From Bacteroidia bacterium (lineage in GTDB: Bacteria; Bacteroidota; Ignavibacteria; UBA10030): a stretch of DNA of 64,000 bases. Each line of letters begins with the position of its first letter. Position 1 is the first letter of the stretch. Below the pieces are notes generated by a model. The model was not told where the DNA came from, did not search any database, and was given only the letters and a program-made list of their open reading frames with translations. Of this stretch, positions 5,704 through 43,090 are shown one piece after another. The stretch is from the NCBI GenBank assembly GCA_022180565.1, contig BQML01000002.1, positions 1-64,000 of the forward strand, in the 5' to 3' direction. A program made the position numbers and the translations under genes.

Positions 5704-6750
5704 ATGGAAGAACTTCTTCAATCCATCATCGGAGAAAGCTGGATCCTCTATGTACTCCTGGCGGCGCCACCGCTGGTGTTTATCCTGGTCTATGCCCTCG
5801 TGACCGTCTGGACGGAAATGAAAGTATCCGCCCACATGCAGGATCGTCTCGCCTACATGTACACCGGACCGCATGGAATCCTCCAGCCGGTGGCCGATAT
5901 TCTGAAGTTGCTCCAGAAGGAAGACACGGTGCCTGCCGCGGCAGACAAGCCCCTGTTCATCATGGCTCCCTATCTGGTATTCATCGGAACCTACGCAGGG
6001 TTTGCCGCATTGCCGTTCAGCAGTGCGTACATCGGCAGTGACATCAATCTCGGCGCCTTTTACATCATCGCGGTTTCATCGATCGTCGTGGTGGGACTTC
6101 TCATGGCCGGATGGGCCTCGAACAACAAATGGTCGATATTCGGCGCCATGAGATCTGCCGCACAGATCGTCAGCTACGAGATTCCGACAGCGCTGGCCCT
6201 GCTGGTGGCGGTGATGATCACAGGGTCGCTTAATTTGCAAGATGTCATCCGGTTTCAGGAGGGAGGGATCCTGAACTGGGTTGTGTTTGGCGGACCCCTG
6301 CCTGTTGTCCAGAAACTGCTCCTCCTGCCTTTCACGGTCACTGCCTTCCTCATCATGTTCATTGCCGGTGTGGCCGAAGTGAACAGGACCCCGTTTGATC
6401 TCCCGGAGGCAGAATCTGAGCTGGTGCAGGGATACAACACCGAATACTCGGGCATGAAGTTCGCCATTTTCTATCTCGCCGAGTATGCAAACATGTACCT
6501 GGTGTCCGGTGTTGCGGCCTGCCTTTTCCTGGGCGGATGGTCCAGCCCGTTCGGGGACTTCATGTCCGGCCCGCTCTGGGGCGTGTTCTGGATCGTGGCC
6601 AAGGGGTACTTCTTCGTGTTCCTGCAGATCTGGATCCGCTGGACTCTTCCGCGCCTGCGTGTGGACCAGCTGATGTACACGTCATGGAAGGTGCTCATCC
6701 CTTTCCTGTTTGTCTGCTTGTTTGGCGTCGGTTTGATTCTCGTGCTTTAG
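5704..6750 (+). CDS. nuoH: NADH-quinone oxidoreductase subunit H
   Basis: NuoH is the membrane subunit that forms the floor of the quinone chamber. The 348-residue protein has eight or nine hydrophobic helices and the family motifs ERKVSAHMQ-like [40 protein letters not shown], and [31 protein letters not shown] with its conserved acidic residues (landmarks only). The third motif is nearly identical to the family consensus. No truncation is seen. Confidence 0.95.
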
Positions 6751-6760
6751 AGAGGAGGAG

Positions 6761-7336
6761 ATGGAAGCTGTTCGGACATATTTTCGCGATATCTGGAAGG
6801 CGCTCTCGTCGATTGCCGTCGGTCTGAACGTGACGATCAGGCACCTGGTGCGCCCGGCAGTGACGATCCAGTATCCTGATGTTAAGCTGAAGATGCCCGA
6901 AAGAGCCCGCAACCGGCTCTATGTCAACATCGACGACTGCATCGGCTGTGATCAATGTGCCCTGGCTTGTCCGGTGGATTGCATCACGATTGAAACGATC
7001 AAAGCCACGCCCGACCAGGATCTTGGGGTTACCTCGACGGGGCACAAGAAGCGTCTGCATGTGCCGCGATTCGACATCGACATTGCCAAGTGCTGTTACT
7101 GCGGGCTTTGCGTGTACCCCTGTCCGACCGAGTGCATTGTCATGACGGATGTCTATGAATTCTCCGAGTTCGACCGACACAACCTGATCTATCAATTCAG
7201 CGCGATGAAACCGGATCAGATTGATGACGCGAAGGCGAAATTGAAGAAGGCGGAGGAGGAAGCGGCCGCCAAGAAGGCTGCGGCGGCAGCGGCTGCGGAA
7301 GAAAAGAAAAAGTCCGAACAGTCAAAGCAAGGGTAA
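6761..7336 (+). CDS. nuoI: NADH-quinone oxidoreductase subunit I with Ala/Lys tail
   Basis: NuoI carries two four-iron clusters of the electron chain. Cys 60/63/66/70 with Cys 74 and Cys 111/114/117/121 with Cys 125 form the two CxxCxxCxxxCP motifs. The N-terminus is the amphipathic lead typical of the family. After residue about 150 there is an unusual C-terminal extension rich in Ala, Lys and Glu (a run of KKAEEEAAAKK type), probably a charged helix at the protein surface. A good ribosome site (GAGGAG) precedes the ATG. Confidence 0.94.
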   Translation: MEAVRTYFRDIWKALSSIAVGLNVTIRHLVRPAVTIQYPDVKLKMPERARNRLYVNIDDCIGCDQCALACPVDCITIETIKATPDQDLGVTSTGHKKRLHVPRFDIDIAKCCYCGLCVYPCPTECIVMTDVYEFSEFDRHNLIYQFSAMKPDQIDDAKAKLKKAEEEAAAKKAAAAAAAEEKKKSEQSKQG

Positions 7337-7337
7337 G

Positions 7338-7841
7338 ATGGAACTCACCACGATCGTCTTTTATGTTTTTGCGGCGATCACTCTGATTGCCGGCGCGATC
7401 GTCGTTTTTTCACGGAGCATCGTGTACTCGGCATTTGCACTCTTGTTCGCCTTCTTCGGCGTTGCCGGATTGTACGTTCTCCTCATGGCCGACTTCCTGG
7501 CGGTCACGCAGTTGATGATCTATGTCGGGGCAATCCTTGTTCTCCTGATCTTTGGCGTCATGCTCACCACACGGGTGATCGATGTGCAAATGCGTACCGG
7601 GACGATTCACGTCCTGCCGGCCTTGCTCATTGTCGCCGCTCTCGCGGGTGTCCTCGTGCATGTCCTGGTCTCAACGGACTGGAAAGTCCTTCCGGAGCTC
7701 TTTACCCCCGAGGAGACGGCCCCCCAGATCGGTACGGCGTTGCTGACGACGTATGTCCTCCCGTTCGAAGTGGCATCGGTCATCCTCCTCGTTGCCTTAA
7801 TCGGTGCCGCGATGATTGCTCGCCGGGAGAGAAAGGTCTGA
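7338..7841 (+). CDS. nuoJ: NADH-quinone oxidoreductase subunit J
   Basis: The 167-residue protein has five predicted membrane helices. The conserved YSAFALLFAFFGVAGLYVLLMADFLAVTQLMIYVGAILVLLIFGVMLT region of NuoJ is clear (the third helix contains the Y-V-G-A-I-L-V-L-L-I-F motif near the pi-bulge). It starts one base after the nuoI stop and abuts nuoK, consistent with coupled translation of the proton-pumping module. Confidence 0.94.
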   Translation: MELTTIVFYVFAAITLIAGAIVVFSRSIVYSAFALLFAFFGVAGLYVLLMADFLAVTQLMIYVGAILVLLIFGVMLTTRVIDVQMRTGTIHVLPALLIVAALAGVLVHVLVSTDWKVLPELFTPEETAPQIGTALLTTYVLPFEVASVILLVALIGAAMIARRERKV

Positions 7842-12081: not shown

Positions 12082-13593
12082 ATGATCGAGCAAATTCTGA
12101 ACAGTCTTTCCCAGTTTCTTCCCGAGGTGACCCTCGTCGCCGCGTTCTGTCTGACGCTTCTGATCAGTCTGATCCTTTCGAGCAAAGGGCGGAACAGGGG
12201 GCGGGTGGCGGTTCCGAGTGCGGCGCTCCTCGGGGTTGCGGTCTCGCTCTTTTTCGTGCTCGACCAGGCCGGGACGTCGCAATCGATCTTTTCCGGAATG
12301 GTTGTGGTCGATCCGTTCTCGGTCTTCTTCAAGACCGTGATCGCCGGCTCTTCTATCCTGATCATTTTCTTCTCCCTGTTCTCCTCCGAGGTGCAAAACG
12401 CGGAACGCTACCGCGGAGAGTACTTTTCGCTTCTGCTGGCTCTCACACTCGGCATGTACCTCATGTCCGCTTCGGCCAATCTGCTGATGATGATCTTGGC
12501 GCTGGAACTGACGAGTCTGACCTCCTATGTTCTTGCCGGATACACGAAGGATGCCGGAGATTCCAGTGAGGCGTCGCTGAAGTACATCATTTACGGAGCG
12601 TTGTCGAGCGGACTGATGCTCTATGGAGTGTCTCTTCTCTACGGGTTGACGGGCGCCACGGACATCTATGGAGTGAATAAAGCCCTCAGCGGAGGTGAGG
12701 TGGATGAGGTTGCCCTCCTGATTGCGAGCATTCTGATGATCGCAGGATTCGGCTACAAAATTTCGGCAGTTCCGTTTCATTTTTGGACACCCGACGTATA
12801 CGAGGGCGCGCCGGTGACCATCACGGCTTTTCTCTCGGTGGCGTCCAAAGCGGCAGGGTTTGCCATGCTGATTCGGTTCTTCAAAGTCTCCTTCATCGAT
12901 TCCAGCGTCATCGGTCTGCCCGAGGGCATGTGGGCTTCGCTTCAGGGATTCGAATGGAACAAGCTGCTTGCAATCTTGTCGGTCCTCACGATGACCCTCG
13001 GCAACCTTGTGGCAATTTGGCAGAACAATCTGAAGCGCCTTCTTGCGTACTCCAGCATTGCTCATGCCGGCTACATGCTGATGGGTGTCGTTGTGCTCAG
13101 TGACAAGGGCCTGGCCGCAGTGCTGATCTATTTTGTGGTGTATCTTTTTATGAATCTCGGCGCTTTCCTCGTGGTCATGATGGTGGCGAACAAGACCGGC
13201 AGTGAAGACATCGACTCGTACAAGGGATTGGGATACCGGTCCCCGCTCGTCGGCGTTGCGATGGTGATCTTCTTCATCTCCCTCACGGGCCTGCCGCCGA
13301 CGGCCGGGTTCATCGGCAAGCTCTACCTGTTTGTGGCGTTGCTTGACGCGCAATGGGTCTGGCTCGCCGTTGTCGGCGCGCTGAACAGCGTCGTCTCGTT
13401 GTATTACTATGTCCGCGTTCTGAGGAACATGTTCCTCCGCGATCCCGAAAAGGATGCCGGGCCCCTGGCGTTCAGCATGCCCCAGGTCGTCCTACTCCTC
13501 GTGCTTCTCCTTCCCACGGTGATCCTGGGACTCTATTTTGCCCCCCTCGTTGACTGGGCGAATGCCTCCGTTCTGATGTTTGGTGTGCGATAA
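12082..13593 (+). CDS. nuoN: NADH-quinone oxidoreductase subunit N
   Basis: The 503-residue protein is the third antiporter-like pump. MMILALELTSLTSYVLAGY carries the essential Glu, KISAVPFHFWTPDVYEGAPVTITAFLSVASKAAGFA is the classic NuoN Lys/Pro region, and LKRLLAYSSIAHAGYMLMG follows. It ends the operon. No obvious hairpin terminator was seen after it, so transcription may run into the response regulator gene 47 bases downstream. Confidence 0.95.
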   Translation: MIEQILNSLSQFLPEVTLVAAFCLTLLISLILSSKGRNRGRVAVPSAALLGVAVSLFFVLDQAGTSQSIFSGMVVVDPFSVFFKTVIAGSSILIIFFSLFSSEVQNAERYRGEYFSLLLALTLGMYLMSASANLLMMILALELTSLTSYVLAGYTKDAGDSSEASLKYIIYGALSSGLMLYGVSLLYGLTGATDIYGVNKALSGGEVDEVALLIASILMIAGFGYKISAVPFHFWTPDVYEGAPVTITAFLSVASKAAGFAMLIRFFKVSFIDSSVIGLPEGMWASLQGFEWNKLLAILSVLTMTLGNLVAIWQNNLKRLLAYSSIAHAGYMLMGVVVLSDKGLAAVLIYFVVYLFMNLGAFLVVMMVANKTGSEDIDSYKGLGYRSPLVGVAMVIFFISLTGLPPTAGFIGKLYLFVALLDAQWVWLAVVGALNSVVSLYYYVRVLRNMFLRDPEKDAGPLAFSMPQVVLLLVLLLPTVILGLYFAPLVDWANASVLMFGVR

Positions 13594-13640
13594 CGCACAG
13601 CAGAGAGGTCGTTTTCGCCGTACGTTGTCTTGAAGAACAC

Positions 13641-14441
13641 GTGAACCGATTGTCCCAAATGTATCCGGCCTCTTCACAGGCGAACATCCTCCTCGTCGAC
13701 GATAACGACGAGTTCAGACGGTTTTTTTCAAACGTGATGGCGGATGAATTCAGTCATCGTGTGGTGACGGCTTCCTCCGGCGAGGAAGCGCTGGAGATTC
13801 TCCAGAGCGGAAAGGGATTCTTCGACTTGATGTTTTTGGACTATTTCATGCCCGGGATGTCCGGACTGGACGTCCTGCGCCGTTTGAATGAAGAGCAGAT
13901 CAGGATTCCGGTGGTCGTGCTCACGGGAGCCGGCAATGAAACTGTGGCCGTGGAGGCCATGAAACTGGGGGCATATGATTACCTGCGGAAAGAGGAGATC
14001 GATATTCCCCACCTCGGAGCGGTGATCGAGGCGACACGTGAGAGGCACATGTTTCGCGTGGCAAAGGAGGCGGAAGAAGATCAGGCCCGCGAGATCCTCC
14101 TCAACAAGGAAGCGACGGAGCGGGTGCGAAGCGTCCTGAATGCCATGACGCCTGCCCTGAACTCGGCCCTGGCCGAGATCGCGGTCCAACTGGAAATTCA
14201 GGCTCCCCAAGCGTTGCGCCAGATGGAAGCGGGAACGGCGCGCGCACGTCTCGATGCCATCTTCAAAGAGCTTCAGCGGCAGGTTGCGGTGCTGGAGTCG
14301 GGCATCAAGGGTTTGTTGAATCTCTACCAGCTCGTGTATGCACGGCACGAAATGTCATCGGCGATCGAAGAGATCGAAAAGGAGCTCGAGCAGAAGATCA
14401 AGGCCTTGAAAGACAGGGAAGATCCCCCGATGCAGGCATGA
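13641..14441 (+). CDS. Response regulator with a degenerate DHp-like helical domain
   Basis: Residues about 14-135 form a receiver domain: the acidic pair is Asp20/Asp21 in ILLVDDND, the phosphoacceptor is Asp67 in LMFLDYFMPGMSG, and the signalling Lys is Lys117 in YLRKEEI. The rest (about 136-260) is all helix with coiled-coil character and no DNA-binding or enzymatic domain. Around residues 160-185 it aligns with the H-box of histidine kinases, but the phosphorylatable His is replaced (MTPALNSALAEI where CHEFNNPLAAI would be expected, with Pro171 at the His position). The same REC-KE(D/E)I-helix layout occurs in the protein at 40487-41152, which retains the His. The GTG at 13641 is the furthest plausible start; the ATG at 13659 is the alternative. 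Its partner is unknown. Confidence 0.75.
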   Translation: MNRLSQMYPASSQANILLVDDNDEFRRFFSNVMADEFSHRVVTASSGEEALEILQSGKGFFDLMFLDYFMPGMSGLDVLRRLNEEQIRIPVVVLTGAGNETVAVEAMKLGAYDYLRKEEIDIPHLGAVIEATRERHMFRVAKEAEEDQAREILLNKEATERVRSVLNAMTPALNSALAEIAVQLEIQAPQALRQMEAGTARARLDAIFKELQRQVAVLESGIKGLLNLYQLVYARHEMSSAIEEIEKELEQKIKALKDREDPPMQA

Positions 14442-35611: not shown

Positions 35612-37375
35612 TCATTCCACACCGGTAGTCTTGATGTCGCGCAATTTCAGCTGGGGGACGAGTTCGCCTGCAAAATCACTCTCGTCGATGGAAAAGGCCA
35701 GATCCACGCGTCGTCCGGCCAGGCGGTCAATGAGTCCGCCCAGATTGAAGCCAATGGCATCGAAAACACGGGTGTTCTGCCTAACCTTGAACCTGAGATG
35801 ATTGTTGCCCACGATTCGGGGCGATCCGACGATTTCGCCGTTGCGGACCGCAAACACGGGCCTCATGTTTCTCGGTCCGAACGGAGCAAACTGGTTCAGG
35901 ATTCTGATGAACTTGGGGGTCAGGTCCGACAACTCGATCGCTGCATCGATCCTGATCTCGGGAGTGAGCACATCATCCGTCAGCAGTTCCTTTGCCACAG
36001 CCGAAAAAGCTTCCTTGAATTCCTCGATGCGATCAACGGCAATGGTCAGACCCGCCGCGTGTTTGTGACCGCCGAACTGAAGCAGGGTGCTCTCACAGCG
36101 CTTCAGCGCCTGGTAAATGTCAAAACCCGCAACGCTCCGCGCCGAGCCCTTGGCCACGCCGTCGACGGTCGTGAGCATGATGGCTGGACGGTAGTAGCGC
36201 TCCACGAGCCGTGAAGCGACGATGCCGATGACGCCCGGATGCCAGGACTCCCGGTGAAGGACAATGGCCCCTTCCTTCTCCATATCCAGAAATCCCTCCA
36301 CCAGATCCTGGGCCTGCATAAAGGTCTCTTCGTCGATTCTTCGCCGATTCTTGTTCTCTTCCTCAAACACGCGCGCAAGCGTCAGAGCTTTCTCATAGGA
36401 ATCACAGGTCAACAGTTCCACCGCCCTGTTGGCGTCGCCCAATCGACCCACCGCGTTGATGCGGGGTGCAAGGATGAACACGATCTGTCCGGCTGTGATG
36501 CGGCCGGGTTTCAGTCCGGAGGTCTCGATCAGCGCCCTGATACCGGGACGAGGCTCCGTGTTGATCAGCTCCAGGCCCAGCTTGACCAATGTTCTGTTCT
36601 CGCCCGAGAGAGCCACAATATCTGCTGTTGAGGCGAGCGCTACGAAATCGAGATATCGCGCCAGGTGGTAGTCAGCGTCCTCTCCAAGGGCATGCACGAC
36701 CTGGTCCTGGGTTGAGAGGGCCTGGATGAACTTGAAACCCACGCCGCACCCGCACAGGTGTTTAAACGGATAGGTACAACCGGGCTTCAGGGGATTCAGG
36801 ATTGCGACGGCAGGAGGAAGCACCGGCCCGGGTTCATGATGGTCACAAACGATCACGTCGATTCCGAGCGACGCCGCGTACGCGACTTGATCCACCGCGG
36901 TGATGCCGCAATCGATCGCTATGAGCAGACGGACCCCTTGGTCTTTCGCCCGCCTGATTCCTCCGGGCGTCAGACCGTAACCATCCTTGATGCGGTCGGG
37001 GATGAACGATGTCACGCGGGCGCCTACGGCGCGGAGGAACATGAACAGCAGGGAAGCGCCGTTTGTCCCGTCGACATCGTAGTCCCCATAGACCAGAATC
37101 GGTTCCCCGTTTTTCACGGCCTTGAGGACTCGTTCCACTGCCACATCCATCCCGCTCATCAAAAACGGGTTGTGGAGGTCGTCGACGGTGGGACGGAAAT
37201 ACACCCGCGCCATTTCTTTTGTGGTGATACCGCGATGGACAAGGATCTCGGCGAGGATGGGGGAGATGGAAAGTTCGTCGGTGATGCGCTTAACATTGGC
37301 TTGGAAATCCACATCGGCTTCGGACGCAGAACCATTGGACCCGAAGTTCCACCGGTATTCTCGAACGGGCGACAC
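35612..37375 (-). CDS. recJ: Single-stranded-DNA exonuclease RecJ
   Basis: The 587-residue 5'-3' exonuclease has the DHH phosphoesterase motifs: ILVYGDYDVDGTNGASLLF (motif I), LLIAIDCGITAVDQV (II) and VIVCDHHEPGP (III, the DHH itself), followed by the DHHA1 domain with QFGGHKHAAGLTI and a C-terminal OB-like domain. The start is a GTG at 37375: it has an AAAGGAG ribosome site nine bases upstream, and the first residues VREYRWNF match RecJ N-termini. A longer frame to 37522 would run into the RNase P RNA gene and is rejected. Confidence 0.94.
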   Translation of the reverse strand: MSPVREYRWNFGSNGSASEADVDFQANVKRITDELSISPILAEILVHRGITTKEMARVYFRPTVDDLHNPFLMSGMDVAVERVLKAVKNGEPILVYGDYDVDGTNGASLLFMFLRAVGARVTSFIPDRIKDGYGLTPGGIRRAKDQGVRLLIAIDCGITAVDQVAYAASLGIDVIVCDHHEPGPVLPPAVAILNPLKPGCTYPFKHLCGCGVGFKFIQALSTQDQVVHALGEDADYHLARYLDFVALASTADIVALSGENRTLVKLGLELINTEPRPGIRALIETSGLKPGRITAGQIVFILAPRINAVGRLGDANRAVELLTCDSYEKALTLARVFEEENKNRRRIDEETFMQAQDLVEGFLDMEKEGAIVLHRESWHPGVIGIVASRLVERYYRPAIMLTTVDGVAKGSARSVAGFDIYQALKRCESTLLQFGGHKHAAGLTIAVDRIEEFKEAFSAVAKELLTDDVLTPEIRIDAAIELSDLTPKFIRILNQFAPFGPRNMRPVFAVRNGEIVGSPRIVGNNHLRFKVRQNTRVFDAIGFNLGGLIDRLAGRRVDLAFSIDESDFAGELVPQLKLRDIKTTGVE

Positions 37376-37474
37376 GACAGAAAGCTCCTTTCCCAAAACG
37401 ACTTTTCTGCGGAACGCAGCAAACCGCTTTGGTACCAGGGGGGTGTTGGTTGTGGTGAGTCGGATGTTACCGAA

Positions 37475-37886
37475 GGCAGGCAGTGGCGCCGATAAGCCGA
37501 ATTCTGTCTTTTCTCCGCGCAAACGGAGAAGAGGCAGTCATTTCTCTGAGCGACCTACCCGTCACGCTCTCTCCGCGAGCGGAGAGATCAGCCGGGCCGG
37601 CTGAAACCACCGAGGTGGAAACGCGACCTACATGGTCTTGCACCGGATGGGGTTTGCCTGGACCGCCGGCATTACTGCCGGTCGCGGTGGTCTCTTACAC
37701 CACCATTTCACCTGTTTCCTCCGCCCTGAGGCGGCGGATGTATGTTTCTGTGGCACTTTCCGTTCCCATGGGGTCTGGCCCATGGGACCCGGGCTTTCGC
37801 CCGGCATCCTGCCCTGTGGTGTTCGGACTTTCCTCTCCGGTTCGATTCGAGTCGAGCCGGAGCGACTGCCTGGCACCACTGCTGCC
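37475..37886 (-). ncRNA. rnpB: RNase P RNA (bacterial type A)
   Basis: Reading the minus strand, the GAGGAAAGTCCGAACACC core (37834-37818) is the universal 5' conserved region and ACAGAATTCGGCTTATC (37507-37491) is the universal 3' element. A GGTGTAAGAGACCACCG segment matches the second conserved region. The outer P1 helix can form between GGCAGCAGTGGTGCC (37886-37872) and GGCGCCACTGCC (about 37490-37479), and P3 is the CTCCGGCTCGA / TCGAACCGGAG stem. The ends are approximate. It is the catalytic RNA that trims tRNA 5' ends. Confidence 0.93.
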
Positions 37887-38020
37887 TTTGGTAACGTTAA
37901 TTAAACCCGTGACCTGCTTGGACATTTCTGCGGGCCTTCAAGCGATCTCGGCGGGCACTTACGTGCGCCTCTCCGACCGAGGTTTGTCATTGTTTCGGCC
38001 GTTCCCGGCCGCAAGCGCCA

Positions 38021-38437
38021 TCAATTTCTTACAGTACGCTTCAGGTTAATGCCCCTGTTAGCCAGATTGTCGGCCTCTGCATTTTCTTCGCGGGAAACAT
38101 GCCTGAATTCCACTTCAAACGGAACCGTGGCCAGCAGTTGTTGCACCTGGGCAAAGAGCGGTTTCAGGCCTGCATCTTTCACTTTGTAGGTCCCCTGAAC
38201 CTGGCGCACCATCAGCTCGCTGTCTGAATGAACAATGAGTCGTGTGCATTTGGTTTCCTGTGCGAGCCTCAAACAGGTTATCAATGCCGTGTACTCTGCC
38301 ACATTGTTGGTCGCAGTTCCAATATAATCCGAAAGCGCAACGATGACGTTTCCGTTTTCGTCCTTCAGCAAAACTCCAACGCCGCTTTCCCCCGGGTTTC
38401 CCCGCGACGCGCCGTCGGTGTGGGCGATGACCGTCAT
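38021..38437 (-). CDS. Ribonuclease HI family protein (short, RNase HI-like)
   Basis: The 138-residue nuclease cleaves the RNA strand of RNA-DNA hybrids. The four active-site acids are Asp8 (TDGASRGNPG), Glu48 (NNVAEYTAL), Asp72 (VHSDSELMV) and Asp123 (NAEADNLANRG). The Trp-rich basic protrusion of E. coli RNase HI is absent, placing it with the short Bacillus/archaeal-type enzymes. It overlaps the upstream zinc-ribbon gene by four bases, and the rnpB gene follows downstream. Confidence 0.9.
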   Translation of the reverse strand: MTVIAHTDGASRGNPGESGVGVLLKDENGNVIVALSDYIGTATNNVAEYTALITCLRLAQETKCTRLIVHSDSELMVRQVQGTYKVKDAGLKPLFAQVQQLLATVPFEVEFRHVSREENAEADNLANRGINLKRTVRN

Positions 38438-39162
38438 ACAGCGGCAACACTGTTGACAATCTCGTCGGAGACCAGGATTCGTCCGCAGTGTTCACACTGG
38501 ATCAGTTTGATGTTCTTTCTGAGCTCGAGGACCGTTTGCGGAGGAATACGCTTGAAGCATCCGCCGCAGGCATTCCGTCGGACGGGAACGACGGCCTTGC
38601 CATCCTTGGCCTGACGGATTCGATCGTACCTTCGCAGGTCACCCTTGTCAATGCGCACAACCAGTTTTTCCCGCTCGTGGCGGAGTTTCAGTTCTTCTTC
38701 TTCATGCTCTTTGTTCACAAGCGCAAGCTCGGCCCTCCGCTCCTCCAGCTCTTTCTTCAGGCTCTCGAGGTCAGGTCCAATCTTTTCAAGGTCCTGTTTT
38801 GCCACGGTGACCTTTCCCTCAACCGCCTCCATTTCTTTTTGCAATTTGTTGATTTTGTCCTGAGCGGCATCAATCTCCCGCGTCAGCGCGTCGTACTGCT
38901 TGTTGGTTTTGACCTGGAACTGCTGACTCTTATATTTTTCGATGGTTTCGCGGAGGGTGACGATCTCCACGTCTACAGCATCGCGTTGAACGATGGATTG
39001 GCGGATGAAATCCTCAAGTTCCTTCCGGGCGCGTTCTTTGCCCTCGATGCGCGATTCGAGGTCCGCAACCTTGTGCGGAAGATCCCCCTTCATCTCCTGC
39101 AGGTCATCTAAACCTGAATCAACCTGCTGGAGACTGAACAGCAATCGCAAACGATTTTCCAA
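38434..39162 (-). CDS. Coiled-coil protein with C-terminal C4 zinc ribbon (DUF164-like)
   Basis: The 242-residue protein is a long antiparallel coiled coil (about residues 1-180, heptads rich in Leu, Glu and Lys) followed by a zinc ribbon with CGGC and CEHC pairs (NACGGCFKRIPPQ, IQCEHCGRIL). This matches the zf-RING_7/DUF164 family, some of whose members bind nucleic acid. The start is a TTG at 39162 because AAGGAAG lies six bases upstream; no ATG fits. A Nif3-family gene precedes it and the pair is a common association, but the exact function is unknown. Confidence 0.85.
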   Translation of the reverse strand: MENRLRLLFSLQQVDSGLDDLQEMKGDLPHKVADLESRIEGKERARKELEDFIRQSIVQRDAVDVEIVTLRETIEKYKSQQFQVKTNKQYDALTREIDAAQDKINKLQKEMEAVEGKVTVAKQDLEKIGPDLESLKKELEERRAELALVNKEHEEEELKLRHEREKLVVRIDKGDLRRYDRIRQAKDGKAVVPVRRNACGGCFKRIPPQTVLELRKNIKLIQCEHCGRILVSDEIVNSVAAV

Positions 39163-39185
39163 TGCATGCTTCCTTTCTTGCCTTT

Positions 39186-40310
39186 TTAATGCACCTGAAT
39201 GGGACTGGTTTTCCGTTGAGTGACGGTAATTGCAACACGCTCCTTGCGCTGAGAACACGCCTGCTCCAGCTTTGCCGCTATGACCGGGAGAATCGGATGT
39301 TCGGTTTCCCAGTGTCCGGCATCGATGAGCGCAATGCGCCTGCCTGTCATCGAGCCGAAAGCGGCATCGTGGAACGTATGGTACCGGACGTCGGCCGTGA
39401 CAAAAGCATCGGCACCTGCGCGCACGGCGGCCTGCAAGAGATCCGAACCGCTTCCTCCGCACACTGCAACACGGCGCACGCGGGAGGGTCCCGACCCGTT
39501 GACACGCACAACGTCAGCCCGAAGCTTCGACCGCACCGACCCGATCCATTTGCCGAGGGACTGGGGATGCTCCAGATCTCCCACAGCACCCATGCCGTAT
39601 TCGGTGCTCACGTTGTCCAGTGGATACAGGTCGTACGCCACTTCTTCGTACGGATGCGCCTTTTTCATGGCTTCAATAACGACAGGAGCGCTTGCGCGCG
39701 CACAGATCATTTCCAGTCGCACCTCCTCTGCCGTCTCCAGGACTCCCGCCTTTCCGACGACGGGATTGGAGTGTTCCGATCCGAGAAAGGTTCCGTGTCC
39801 ATTGATCTGAAACGAACAATGAGAGTAGTTCCCGATGATGCCTGCCCCGGCGGCTGACATTGCCTCCATAACCTTTCCAACGGATCCTTGGGGAACAAAA
39901 ACGGCGATCTTTGCCATGAGACCTTTCAGGGGCGCCAGGAATCCAATGTTCTTCAATCCGAGCACCCTGGCAAGCGTCATGCTCACGCCGTCGCGCGTAA
40001 AATCGAGATTTGTGTGGGCCGAGTAGAGCGCAATGCCATGCCGGGCGAGCCGGAGAATCATGCTCCCAACGGGATCCGACGTGCTGAGGGAGGTGAGGGG
40101 TCTGAACAGAAGGGGATGGTGGGAGATGAGCAGATCGGCTTTGACCCTGACGGCCTCATCGATGATTTCGTGTGTGACGTCGAGGCAGACGTGGATCCTT
40201 CTGACCTGTGCCGATGGGTCTCCCACCTGCAGGCCCACATTGTCCTTTTCCCACGAGATCCACGTTGGGGCCCATTGCTCCATGATATGTTCGACGTCGG
40301 CTACGGTCAT
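39186..40310 (-). CDS. Nif3-like dinuclear metal-centre protein
   Basis: The 374-residue protein has the Nif3/YqfO layout: N-terminal NGG1-interacting domain with ISHHPLLFRPL and AHTNLDFTRDG, a middle PII-like insert of about 100 residues (FVPQGSVGKVMEAMSAAGAGIIGNYSHCSF), and a C-terminal metal-binding portion with CGGSGSDLL, DVRYHTFHDA and LIDAGHWETE. The ATG at 40310 is preferred over 40358 since it starts the family motif MTVADVEHIMEQWAP. The hexameric proteins are implicated in metal handling; the reaction is not settled. Confidence 0.9.
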   Translation of the reverse strand: MTVADVEHIMEQWAPTWISWEKDNVGLQVGDPSAQVRRIHVCLDVTHEIIDEAVRVKADLLISHHPLLFRPLTSLSTSDPVGSMILRLARHGIALYSAHTNLDFTRDGVSMTLARVLGLKNIGFLAPLKGLMAKIAVFVPQGSVGKVMEAMSAAGAGIIGNYSHCSFQINGHGTFLGSEHSNPVVGKAGVLETAEEVRLEMICARASAPVVIEAMKKAHPYEEVAYDLYPLDNVSTEYGMGAVGDLEHPQSLGKWIGSVRSKLRADVVRVNGSGPSRVRRVAVCGGSGSDLLQAAVRAGADAFVTADVRYHTFHDAAFGSMTGRRIALIDAGHWETEHPILPVIAAKLEQACSQRKERVAITVTQRKTSPIQVH

Positions 40311-40323
40311 GCAGCACCCCGCC

Positions 40324-40360
40324 CAGAAAGAAAGTGTCCCGCTTGTTGGGCGGGACACTT
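40324..40360 (-). terminator. Predicted terminator between the REC-DHp and nif3 genes
   Basis: AAGTGTCCCGC (40332-40342) and GCGGGACACTT (40350-40360) form a perfect 11-bp inverted repeat with a 7-base loop. On the minus strand the stem is followed by a T-rich CTTTCTTTCT stretch, so it fits termination of the gene ending at 40487. Confidence 0.65.
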
Positions 40361-40486: not shown

Positions 40487-41152
40487 TCAAGATGGGCCTG
40501 CTGCGTCAAGACGCTCAAAATTGATATCGCGTAAGCGTTTGATTTCACCCTCGATTTTTTGAAAGTGCCTCTCGAACTCACGCAGGAGGTTCTTTTCATC
40601 GTCCGAAAACTGGCGGGCGAGGAGATCCGCGCTGATCTTGATGGCGGCCAGAGGATTATTGAACTCGTGGCAAACGGTAACAACCAGCTCCCGGATGGCC
40701 TCCGCGCGCTTGGCGGCAATGAGCATCCGCTTCTCCACGGCCTCCATCTGCCGCCGCGTCCGGTACTTCTCCAGCACATTGATGATGGTCTTTGGGAGGA
40801 GGAGTTCGGAAATGTCTTCCTTGACGAGGAAATCCTCAACACCGAGTTTCATGGCGTCAATGGCAAGCTTGAAGTCCCTTGTGGCGGTGACGAAGATGAT
40901 CGGGATTTCCGAATTCATGGCGTTGAGCTGGAGGCAGAACTCAAGGCCGTTTGAGTCGGGGAGGCCGTAATCGGTCACAATCACATCGATGGATTTGTTG
41001 CCCCGAACCTCCGCAAGGGCGTCCTCGACCCTCTCTTTCCAGACAAGCTTGAACTCCCGCGCCTGGAACTTCTGAAGATGGTGCTGGACGATCTTGACGA
41101 ACGTGATGTCGCCGTCCACAAGCAGAACCGTAATGGTTTTTTGCGATTCCAT
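40487..41152 (-). CDS. REC-DHp protein lacking a histidine-kinase ATPase domain
   Basis: The 221-residue protein has an N-terminal receiver domain (about 7-128; phosphoacceptor Asp61 in VIVTDYGLPDSNG, Lys111 in FLVKEDI, Asp13, but Gly14 where the second pocket acid usually is) joined by a helix to a histidine-kinase dimerisation domain (about 145-212) with a complete H-box, VCHEFNNPLAAI, whose His is His162. The protein ends there with no N, G1 or G2 box, so it cannot autophosphorylate. The ATG at 41152 is chosen because the ORF above it is not REC-like. It is divergent from a stand-alone receiver and an NtrC-type regulator, which suggests a local phosphorelay; this is inference. Confidence 0.82.
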   Translation of the reverse strand: MESQKTITVLLVDGDITFVKIVQHHLQKFQAREFKLVWKERVEDALAEVRGNKSIDVIVTDYGLPDSNGLEFCLQLNAMNSEIPIIFVTATRDFKLAIDAMKLGVEDFLVKEDISELLLPKTIINVLEKYRTRRQMEAVEKRMLIAAKRAEAIRELVVTVCHEFNNPLAAIKISADLLARQFSDDEKNLLREFERHFQKIEGEIKRLRDINFERLDAAGPS

Positions 41153-41215: not shown

Positions 41216-41244
41216 TTGCATTTCAGGCTGAATTTGTCTATAAT
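41216..41244 (+). promoter_or_regulatory. Predicted promoter of the receiver/NtrC pair
   Basis: TTGCAT (41216-41221) and TATAAT (41239-41244) have a 17-base spacer; the transcript would have a leader of about 65 bases before the ATG at 41317. Confidence 0.65.
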
Positions 41245-41316: not shown

Positions 41317-41688
41317 ATGGCGGTAAAGAACAAGATTCTGGTTGTGGACGATGAAGAGGCGTTGCGCACGGTACTGAGCGCAGAACTGGAGGGAGAGGGA
41401 TATCAAGTCAGCACCGCGGCGGACGGCGATGAAGCAATCAAGATCATCGGTTCAGAACAGTTCCATCTGATACTTCTGGACATCAAGATGCCGAATGTAG
41501 ACGGCTTTGAAGTACTGAAGTACGTGAAACAGCACCAGCCGTCGACCAAGGTCATCATGCTCACGGGGTTTGCGGACCTCAAGAACGCCATCGAATCGAA
41601 AAAGCTTGGCGCCGAGGATTTCGTCAGCAAACCGTACGATCTGGTCGATCTCCTCACGACCGTTGAGCGCGTGCTGGGGACCAGCTAA
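41317..41688 (+). CDS. Stand-alone receiver domain (CheY-like)
   Basis: The 123-residue protein is a single receiver domain: acidic pair in ILVVDDEEALR, phosphoacceptor in LILLDIKMPNVDG, Thr in IMLTGFAD and Lys in FVSKPYDL. There is no output domain. It lies 19 bases before an NtrC-type regulator and is divergent from the REC-DHp gene. A phosphoryl shuttle between these proteins is plausible but not shown. Confidence 0.88.
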   Translation: MAVKNKILVVDDEEALRTVLSAELEGEGYQVSTAADGDEAIKIIGSEQFHLILLDIKMPNVDGFEVLKYVKQHQPSTKVIMLTGFADLKNAIESKKLGAEDFVSKPYDLVDLLTTVERVLGTS

Positions 41689-41707: not shown

Positions 41708-43090
41708 ATGCCCAAGAAGTACCGCATTCTCCTTGTTGACGACGACAAGGACATCACCTTCCTCCTGCAGACCGAATTCGAAGACCTTGCCGAATTTGAT
41801 GTCTCTGTGGCTCAAAACGGTACAGAGGCCATCAATCTCATTCAATCCAATCTCTATGACGTTGTTTTACTCGATATCAAGATGCCCCGCGTGGGCGGCA
41901 TCGAGGTGTTAAAATTCATTCGCGAGCACTCGCCGACGACGCAAGTGATCATGCTGACGAATGTCGTGGACATGAAAACGGCGTTTGAAACCGTGAAGCT
42001 GGGGGCGTACGACTTCATTCCCAAGCCGTACGAGTCGGATCAGCTTCGGGCCACGGTGCAGAGGGCGATTGAGCGGCGGAAGTTCATGATCGAAAAAGAG
42101 ATCATGAAGAATGAGCTTCTGCGCGTGGGCGGATCCCCGGTGTTTGTCGGAAAAAGCCGGATGACTCAGCAGGTGATTCAGCATGTCCGGAAGATTGCCG
42201 CGAGTGACACGTTTGTTCTGATTCAGGGCGCGAGCGGCACCGGCAAGGAACTTGTGGCGCATATGATTCACAACGAGAGTGCACGGCGTGACGGTCCGTT
42301 CGTCGCGGTGAACTGCGCATCGATTCCGGACCAGCTTCTGGAGAGCGAGTTATTCGGGCATGAAAAGGGATCGTTCACCAACGCATTTACGGCGAAGCAG
42401 GGTTTGGTCGAAGTGGCCAACGGGGGAACGCTGTTCCTGGATGAGGTGGGGGATATCAGCCCTATGACCCAACCCAAGCTGTTGCGGTTTCTGGAGACCG
42501 GCGAGTTCCGGCGCGTGGGAGGAACATCGGCCATGCGCGTGGATGTCCGGATAGTCTCGGCGACGAATAAGAACCTGGCCGCGGAGGTTGCAGCGGGCAG
42601 GTTTCGCGAGGATTTGCTGTATCGCTTGAACATCTTCACGATTCAGGTTCCGCCTCTCAAGGACCGAAAGGAGGATATTCCGCTCCTGGTCGAGCATTTC
42701 CTCAACCGCAAATCCAAGCAAAAGCGCGTGAGCGAGGCGGCTTTGAGGGTGCTGATGGAGTACGACTGGCCGGGCAACGTGCGCGAATTGGAGCATGTCA
42801 TCGAGGGTGCGGCCGTGTTGGGTCAGGGGGACACTATCGAGGCGGGAGATCTGTGGGGGAACACGGCGTTTGCTGCTGCGACCGGCGCGAAGCCCGCGCC
42901 AGTCGCCGAGACGGCAGACGCACACGAAGCCAACGGTCTGCTTTCGCTCGAAGAGGTCGAGCGCATGCACATTGAGAAGGTCCTGGAGTTCCATAAGTTC
43001 AACCGCGTCAAGACCGCCAAAACCCTCGGAATCACTCCGAAGACGCTGTATCTGAAGATCAAGAAGTATAAGATCAAGACAGGGGAGTAA
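41708..43090 (+). CDS. NtrC-type sigma-54-dependent response regulator
   Basis: The 460-residue regulator has a receiver domain (acidic pocket in LLVDDDKD, Asp56 in VVLLDIKMPRVGG, Lys in FIPKPYE), an AAA+ sigma-54 activation domain (Walker A QGASGTGKELVA, Walker B GGTLFLDEVGDIS, arginine region near FREDLLYRLN) and a C-terminal Fis-type HTH (FNRVKTAKTLGITPKTLYLKIKKY). The sigma-54 contact loop reads GSFTNA where GAFTGA is usual, with the key Thr preserved. The ATG at 41708 has a GGTGGAG ribosome site. It is a partner of the receiver gene just upstream. Confidence 0.93.
   Translation: MPKKYRILLVDDDKDITFLLQTEFEDLAEFDVSVAQNGTEAINLIQSNLYDVVLLDIKMPRVGGIEVLKFIREHSPTTQVIMLTNVVDMKTAFETVKLGAYDFIPKPYESDQLRATVQRAIERRKFMIEKEIMKNELLRVGGSPVFVGKSRMTQQVIQHVRKIAASDTFVLIQGASGTGKELVAHMIHNESARRDGPFVAVNCASIPDQLLESELFGHEKGSFTNAFTAKQGLVEVANGGTLFLDEVGDISPMTQPKLLRFLETGEFRRVGGTSAMRVDVRIVSATNKNLAAEVAAGRFREDLLYRLNIFTIQVPPLKDRKEDIPLLVEHFLNRKSKQKRVSEAALRVLMEYDWPGNVRELEHVIEGAAVLGQGDTIEAGDLWGNTAFAAATGAKPAPVAETADAHEANGLLSLEEVERMHIEKVLEFHKFNRVKTAKTLGITPKTLYLKIKKYKIKTGE

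Follow-up and report, generated by a model that had tools for sequence, protein, structure and literature searches.

To our knowledge, the known DHp phosphotransferases all keep a vestigial ATPase-like domain. In ChpT, a degenerate Bergerat-fold domain lies beside the bundle and there is no receiver (REC) domain; Spo0B has a degenerate Bergerat-fold domain as well and likewise lacks a REC domain, and PhyT, a member of a different DHp class, retains an ATPase domain in degenerate form and lacks a REC at its N-terminus. In ChpT and Spo0B, the DHp four-helix bundle serves as a phosphotransferase without autokinase activity (PMC3433190), and PhyT (PhyP) of Sphingomonas melonis transfers phosphate from the lone receiver SdrG to the output regulator PhyR via a conserved His, in addition to holding the regulator (PMC5898713).

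The protein considered here, REC-DHp, is encoded in a window of 64,000 nucleotides (positions 1 to 64,000 of contig BQML01000002.1, from a bacterium of the Ignavibacteria). Unlike ChpT and Spo0B, it carries a fused REC and has no degenerate domain beside the bundle, and unlike PhyT, which is membrane-bound, it consists of a REC and a HisKA domain with no ATPase domain at all. With LvrB of Leptospira, a REC-DHp-CA kinase, it shares the REC, the signalling helix and the DHp. LvrB is both its best full-length structural match (Foldseek, 217 columns) and its nearest solved sequence relative, the latter match stopping inside the DHp; however, LvrB possesses a catalytic domain, absent from REC-DHp, and can autophosphorylate. 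NtrB-type partners of NtrC offer a further comparison: the REC-DHp gene of a sister family likewise lies directly ahead of an NtrC-type gene, yet REC-DHp has neither a sensor nor an ATPase domain. By analogy, REC-DHp may work like ChpT, Spo0B and PhyT, but because the degenerate ATPase-like domain is absent from it, we do not place it in any existing family. Searches of the open-access literature turned up no account of REC-HisKA proteins that lack an ATPase domain, although one may exist elsewhere. A conserved family without an ATPase-like domain would show that a bundle and a receiver alone form a stable signalling module.

Gene, domains and predicted fold

The REC-DHp gene (40487..41152, minus strand) is a real, in-frame open reading frame of 221 codons plus stop. 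Pfam recognises Response_reg at residues 9-117 (40802..41128, minus strand; 65.2 bits, cut-off 30.2) and HisKA at residues 154-210 (40523..40693, minus strand; 31.8 bits, cut-off 26.9), and no match to HATPase_c in any of the 221 residues. The REC carries Asp13/Gly14, the phospho-acceptor Asp61, Thr89 and Lys111, and is joined by a signalling helix (residues 118-153; 40694..40801, minus strand) to the DHp hairpin, the H-box of which, LVVTVCHEFNNPLAAIKIS (40631..40687, minus strand), contains His162 (codon 40667-40669). These results bear out what the earlier note had read from the letters, namely, a REC and a DHp without an ATPase domain and an intact H-box with His162 in CHEFNNP. In an AlphaFold2 model computed from the window and related-locus sequences (mean pLDDT 88.7), the REC is followed by a single continuous helix (118-179) and a returning helix (184-208), which together make up a complete DHp hairpin; neither the model nor Pfam places a degenerate ATPase-like domain beside it.

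With respect to the features of a histidine kinase, the DHp with a phosphorylatable His in its H-box is present, and the catalytic ATP-binding domain, with its N, G1 and G2 boxes, is absent, likewise in the orthologues. The chain stops after the DHp, and the protein is not a kinase. It does have what characterises DHp phosphotransferases, a hairpin with a conserved His and no autokinase machinery, as seen in the alignment and the AlphaFold2 model, as well as the HisKA phosphatase motif H-E/D-x-x-T/N, with Asn166 as the +4 residue. The next gene on that strand (39186-40358) lies only about 130 bases beyond the stop codon, which leaves no room for an ATPase domain hidden downstream, and orthologue chains end 48-76 residues past the His, except for one cut sequence. 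A longer or frameshifted frame encoding such a domain, an eventuality considered in the earlier note, is thereby ruled out. The REC-DHp gene heads a row of genes on the same strand (window 35612-40358, minus strand) that is kept in many relatives and includes putative Nif3-like, zinc-ribbon, RNase HI-like and RecJ-like genes, named by sequence resemblance.

A histidine site frozen in orthologues and lost in paralogues

Matches at an E-value of 1e-15 or better were found in 88 of 100 related genomes, far beyond chance, and orthologues, which we call clade A and told from paralogues by score, in about 75 of them (phmmer E-values from about 1e-47 to 1e-124). In a 395-genome sample of the phylum, strong matches are confined to the order and to a single genus from a different family of the class. 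Where the same sequences appear in named records, these are metagenome-assembled genomes assigned to Ignavibacteria/Ignavibacteriales, Bacteroidota or 'Chlorobi', recovered from groundwater, fens, sediments and similar sources.

Residue conservation was assessed in 42 orthologues, picked by overall score rather than by motif and extending down to about 40% identity, and in a set of 73 that was selected by the H-box. All 42 of the former share His162-Glu-Phe-Asn-Asn-Pro-Leu-Ala-Ala and Ile173-Ser174 without any change, matching the conserved His anticipated from the window sequence, and the H, E, N and P of the H-box, Asn166 included, are unchanged in 71 of 71 sequences of an enlarged set. The receiver is less constrained: among the 42 orthologues, the acceptor Asp is kept in 39, the first acidic Asp in 38 and the second in 34, and by the rule used, all five REC residues (DD, D, T, K) are present in 53 of the 73, with the window protein lacking the second D. 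Over the same 57 genomes, mean pairwise identity reaches 0.93 in the H-box and 0.79 in DHp helix 1 and falls to 0.47 in the REC, 0.46 in the linker and 0.40 in DHp helix 2. The spacing from Lys111 to His162 is 51 residues in 71 of the 73 orthologues, which fits the rigid signalling helix described for REC-controlled kinases (PMC13269768).

The second acidic residue of the window REC, Gly14 (VDGD), had been taken in the earlier note as a hint of an unusual receiver. The glycine is there, but the family residues at this position are D (34), E (3), N (2), Q (1), A (1) and G (1), and D is also what the genus's other species carries, so that Gly14 is a private substitution of this genome, one base away from Asp (GAC to GGC), which says little about the family. 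The residue counts and the congener's D rule it out as a family trait, and the idea that it makes the receiver unusual gains no support.

In several of the 73 orthologues, the phospho-acceptor Asp is replaced by Asn, Ser or Glu or is deleted while the full H-box is retained, and the orthologue at L067 has lost all three of the REC residues Asp, Thr and Lys. The phospho-Asp can therefore be lost while the H-box stays perfect, suggesting that the DHp acts in trans; supply of phosphate from the protein's own Asp, suggested in the earlier note, does not hold as a conserved mechanism. Since the histidine site is unchanged among relatives of one order, REC-DHp probably serves the neighbouring regulator as a genuine relay or off-switch and is not a broken kinase. 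That it could be a functionless, decaying remnant of a REC-DHp-CA kinase is brought to mind by its architecture, which equals LvrB minus the ATPase domain, and by the loss of the gene in one lineage, but this is contradicted by order-wide conservation, the invariant H-box and the fixed linker length, and we consider it extremely improbable.

Most of these genomes encode a second REC-DHp, clade B (here on contig C10, 100800-101417; L160:4750-5502, minus strand), which presents the reverse pattern; the copy of this genome has an intact REC and a DHp that lacks the catalytic Asn. Its REC residues are retained, its linker is four residues shorter than that of clade A and it ends in a conserved YIKDIKMIDLS-like tail, whereas the His is lost in 23 of 25 sequences and the Asn at +4 in all 25. 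In a maximum-likelihood tree, clades A (71 rows) and B (25 rows) are split, each with 100/99 support. Because smaller lineages (three sister-family genomes and four 'C' sequences) retain the His, its loss in clade B is most simply a derived state. In several genomes, a large PAS/GAF histidine kinase, complete with HisKA and HATPase_c domains, is encoded immediately ahead of the clade B gene, and clade B looks like the response regulator of that kinase, with a dead DHp as its output domain. Clade B genes of relatives also lie near CN-hydrolase, TPM-domain and M48-peptidase genes.

Given that clade B keeps the fold and has lost the His and Asn, the clade A H-box is not conserved for folding alone, and we regard this contrast as the best evidence that it is kept for chemistry. 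The two clades, one with a relaxed REC and a frozen H-box and the other the reverse, amount to a natural experiment in the conversion of kinases into relay proteins or output domains. A DHp that merely holds the NtrC-type protein or the lone receiver without chemistry, with release controlled by phosphorylation of the REC, would suit clade B; for clade A, in which all catalytic H-box residues are kept, we deem such a titration module quite improbable. Elsewhere in the window (13554-14438, plus strand), a further REC protein, the C-terminal part of which is long and helical, matches the REC-DHp profile weakly and has no recognisable H-box.

Neighbouring genes and the proposed relay

Divergently from the REC-DHp gene lies a gene for a lone receiver of 123 aa (41317..41688, plus strand), followed by one for an NtrC-type activator composed of a REC, a sigma-54 AAA+ domain and a Fis HTH (41708..43090, plus strand). 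A tentative sigma-70-like promoter (TTGCAT, 17 bases, TATAAT; 41216..41244, plus strand) can be made out by eye ahead of the lone receiver gene, and no sigma-54 promoter was found between the divergent genes in 53 loci with the pattern used. The activator has GSFTNA at the sigma-54 contact loop, the canonical form of which is GAFTGA.

The association of REC-DHp with these two genes, proposed for checking in the earlier note, proved to be widespread. The divergent pair adjoins 53-57 of 73 distinct orthologues, the remainder being mostly at contig ends or in one family of the order, in which REC-DHp and the pair are unlinked yet both present. Across the 100 genomes, 73 have both, 2 (fragmented assemblies) only REC-DHp, 17 only the receiver and NtrC genes, and 8 neither (Fisher p about 2e-4, relatedness ignored). 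REC-DHp thus nearly always implies the pair, but not vice versa. About a dozen of the 17 genomes with the pair only are from a single other family. In those examined, the receiver is faced directly by a gene that corresponds in size and placement to the GHMP-kinase-type gene found after REC-DHp in relatives. These dozen genomes have lost REC-DHp and kept the pair, and in them REC-DHp is therefore not an obligatory link. Conservation of the lone receiver is high whether or not the genome encodes REC-DHp and, being equally extreme where REC-DHp is missing, does not prove this receiver to be the partner.

We propose that REC-DHp is a dimeric, ATP-independent histidine phosphotransferase, also equipped as a phosphatase, which serves the adjacent NtrC-type sigma-54 activator; judging from residue conservation and gene context, we hold this reading at about an even chance. 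Two chains, for which the single-chain fold is predicted, would pair to form a four-helix DHp bundle. His162 would take a phosphoryl group from a receiver, most plausibly the one at 41317, that kinases encoded at other loci have charged, and would hand it to the REC of the NtrC-type activator. Through Asn166, the same DHp surface may also dephosphorylate that REC. The protein's own REC may tune the bundle via the fixed-length helix, as in LvrB, with this tuning lost in some lineages. This would give a likely partner to the receiver-NtrC pair, so far an orphan in these mostly uncultured bacteria.

Known properties of HisKA domains bear on the chemistry. The Glu next to the His (+1) serves kinase activity and the Asn at +4 phosphatase activity, for which the Thr/Asn is needed and the acidic residue is not (PMC3510030); the His cannot be bypassed in phosphotransfer, yet is not essential for the phosphatase (PMC12632262). 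That His, Glu and Asn are all invariant speaks for a phosphotransferase that can also act as a phosphatase, as in PhyT. A dedicated phosphatase is possible but doubtful: the DHp would use Asn166 to strip the NtrC-type activator, the lone receiver or both of phosphate, with its own REC as the switch and no phosphate on His162 in vivo. The invariant H-E-x-x-N motif, the dependence of HisKA phosphatases on Thr/Asn rather than on the acidic residue (PMC3510030) and the persistence of the NtrC-type protein and the lone receiver without REC-DHp in one lineage, as expected for a modulator, all agree with it; however, the His and Glu are as invariant as the Asn, even though a phosphatase can dispense with the Glu (PMC3510030) and does not strictly need the His (PMC12632262).

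The source of phosphate would be very different if REC-DHp were one half of a split kinase, with a foreign ATPase domain phosphorylating His162 in trans, in a heterodimer or through transient contact, before donation to the NtrC-type activator. The genome has about 40 HATPase_c domains that could serve, and Glu163, which an ATPase domain requires in order to phosphorylate the His (PMC3510030), is invariant. Against this, gene-context comparison revealed no conserved kinase or ATPase-only neighbour of clade A, and none of 30 kinase H-box stretches retrieved from the genome, by a pattern that missed some H-boxes, closely matches that of REC-DHp, the best agreeing at 12 of 25 residues. We therefore regard a split kinase as unlikely. 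The same 30 stretches likewise yielded no candidate donor kinase for the proposed relay, which weighs against that reading too. The suggestion that REC-DHp is an inhibitory partner of kinases gained no specific support either, a kinase gene not being a conserved neighbour of clade A.

Sister-family and other ATPase-less proteins

A REC-DHp gene with an intact H-box, the product of which ends in a YIGNIKMIDLS tail, directly precedes an NtrC-type gene in three genomes from a genus that lies outside the order. This REC-DHp gene occupies the place expected for an NtrB kinase, a position that would also suit half of a split kinase. The NtrC-type neighbour matches that of the window at about 500 bits. 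These genes have no adjacent lone receiver, an absence that weighs against the relay as proposed and suggests that REC-DHp was partnered with the NtrC-type protein first. In the one sister-family genome checked with Pfam, the upstream genes include murC, ftsA and ftsZ, with murB and ftsQ lying between them, judged by position and sequence. At L151:433-8277 (plus strand), and also at L152, the REC-DHp and NtrC-type genes end this division and cell-wall cluster right after ftsZ, which suggests a link of the sister-family protein to cell division.

More broadly, and with less confidence than we attach to the relay itself, these proteins may represent a type of phosphorelay built from a receiver and a DHp bundle only, with no ATPase-like domain, that connects kinases with a single sigma-54 activator throughout a bacterial order. 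Its mirror-image paralogues would have kept the receiver and turned the DHp into a non-catalytic output domain, and the sister-family form would be tied to the cell-division cluster.

The genome under study encodes two more ATPase-less HisKA proteins (L158:4716-5405 and L159:642-1217, both plus strand), with apparently hydrophobic (membrane) segments ahead of the DHp; the H-box reads QHDINNPL in one, with the His kept, and LQDTINNPL in the other, with the His lost. At L157:5370-6167 (plus strand), a HisKA protein of 265 aa with a short, degenerate-looking ATPase part is encoded directly ahead of an NtrC-type gene (6172-7551).
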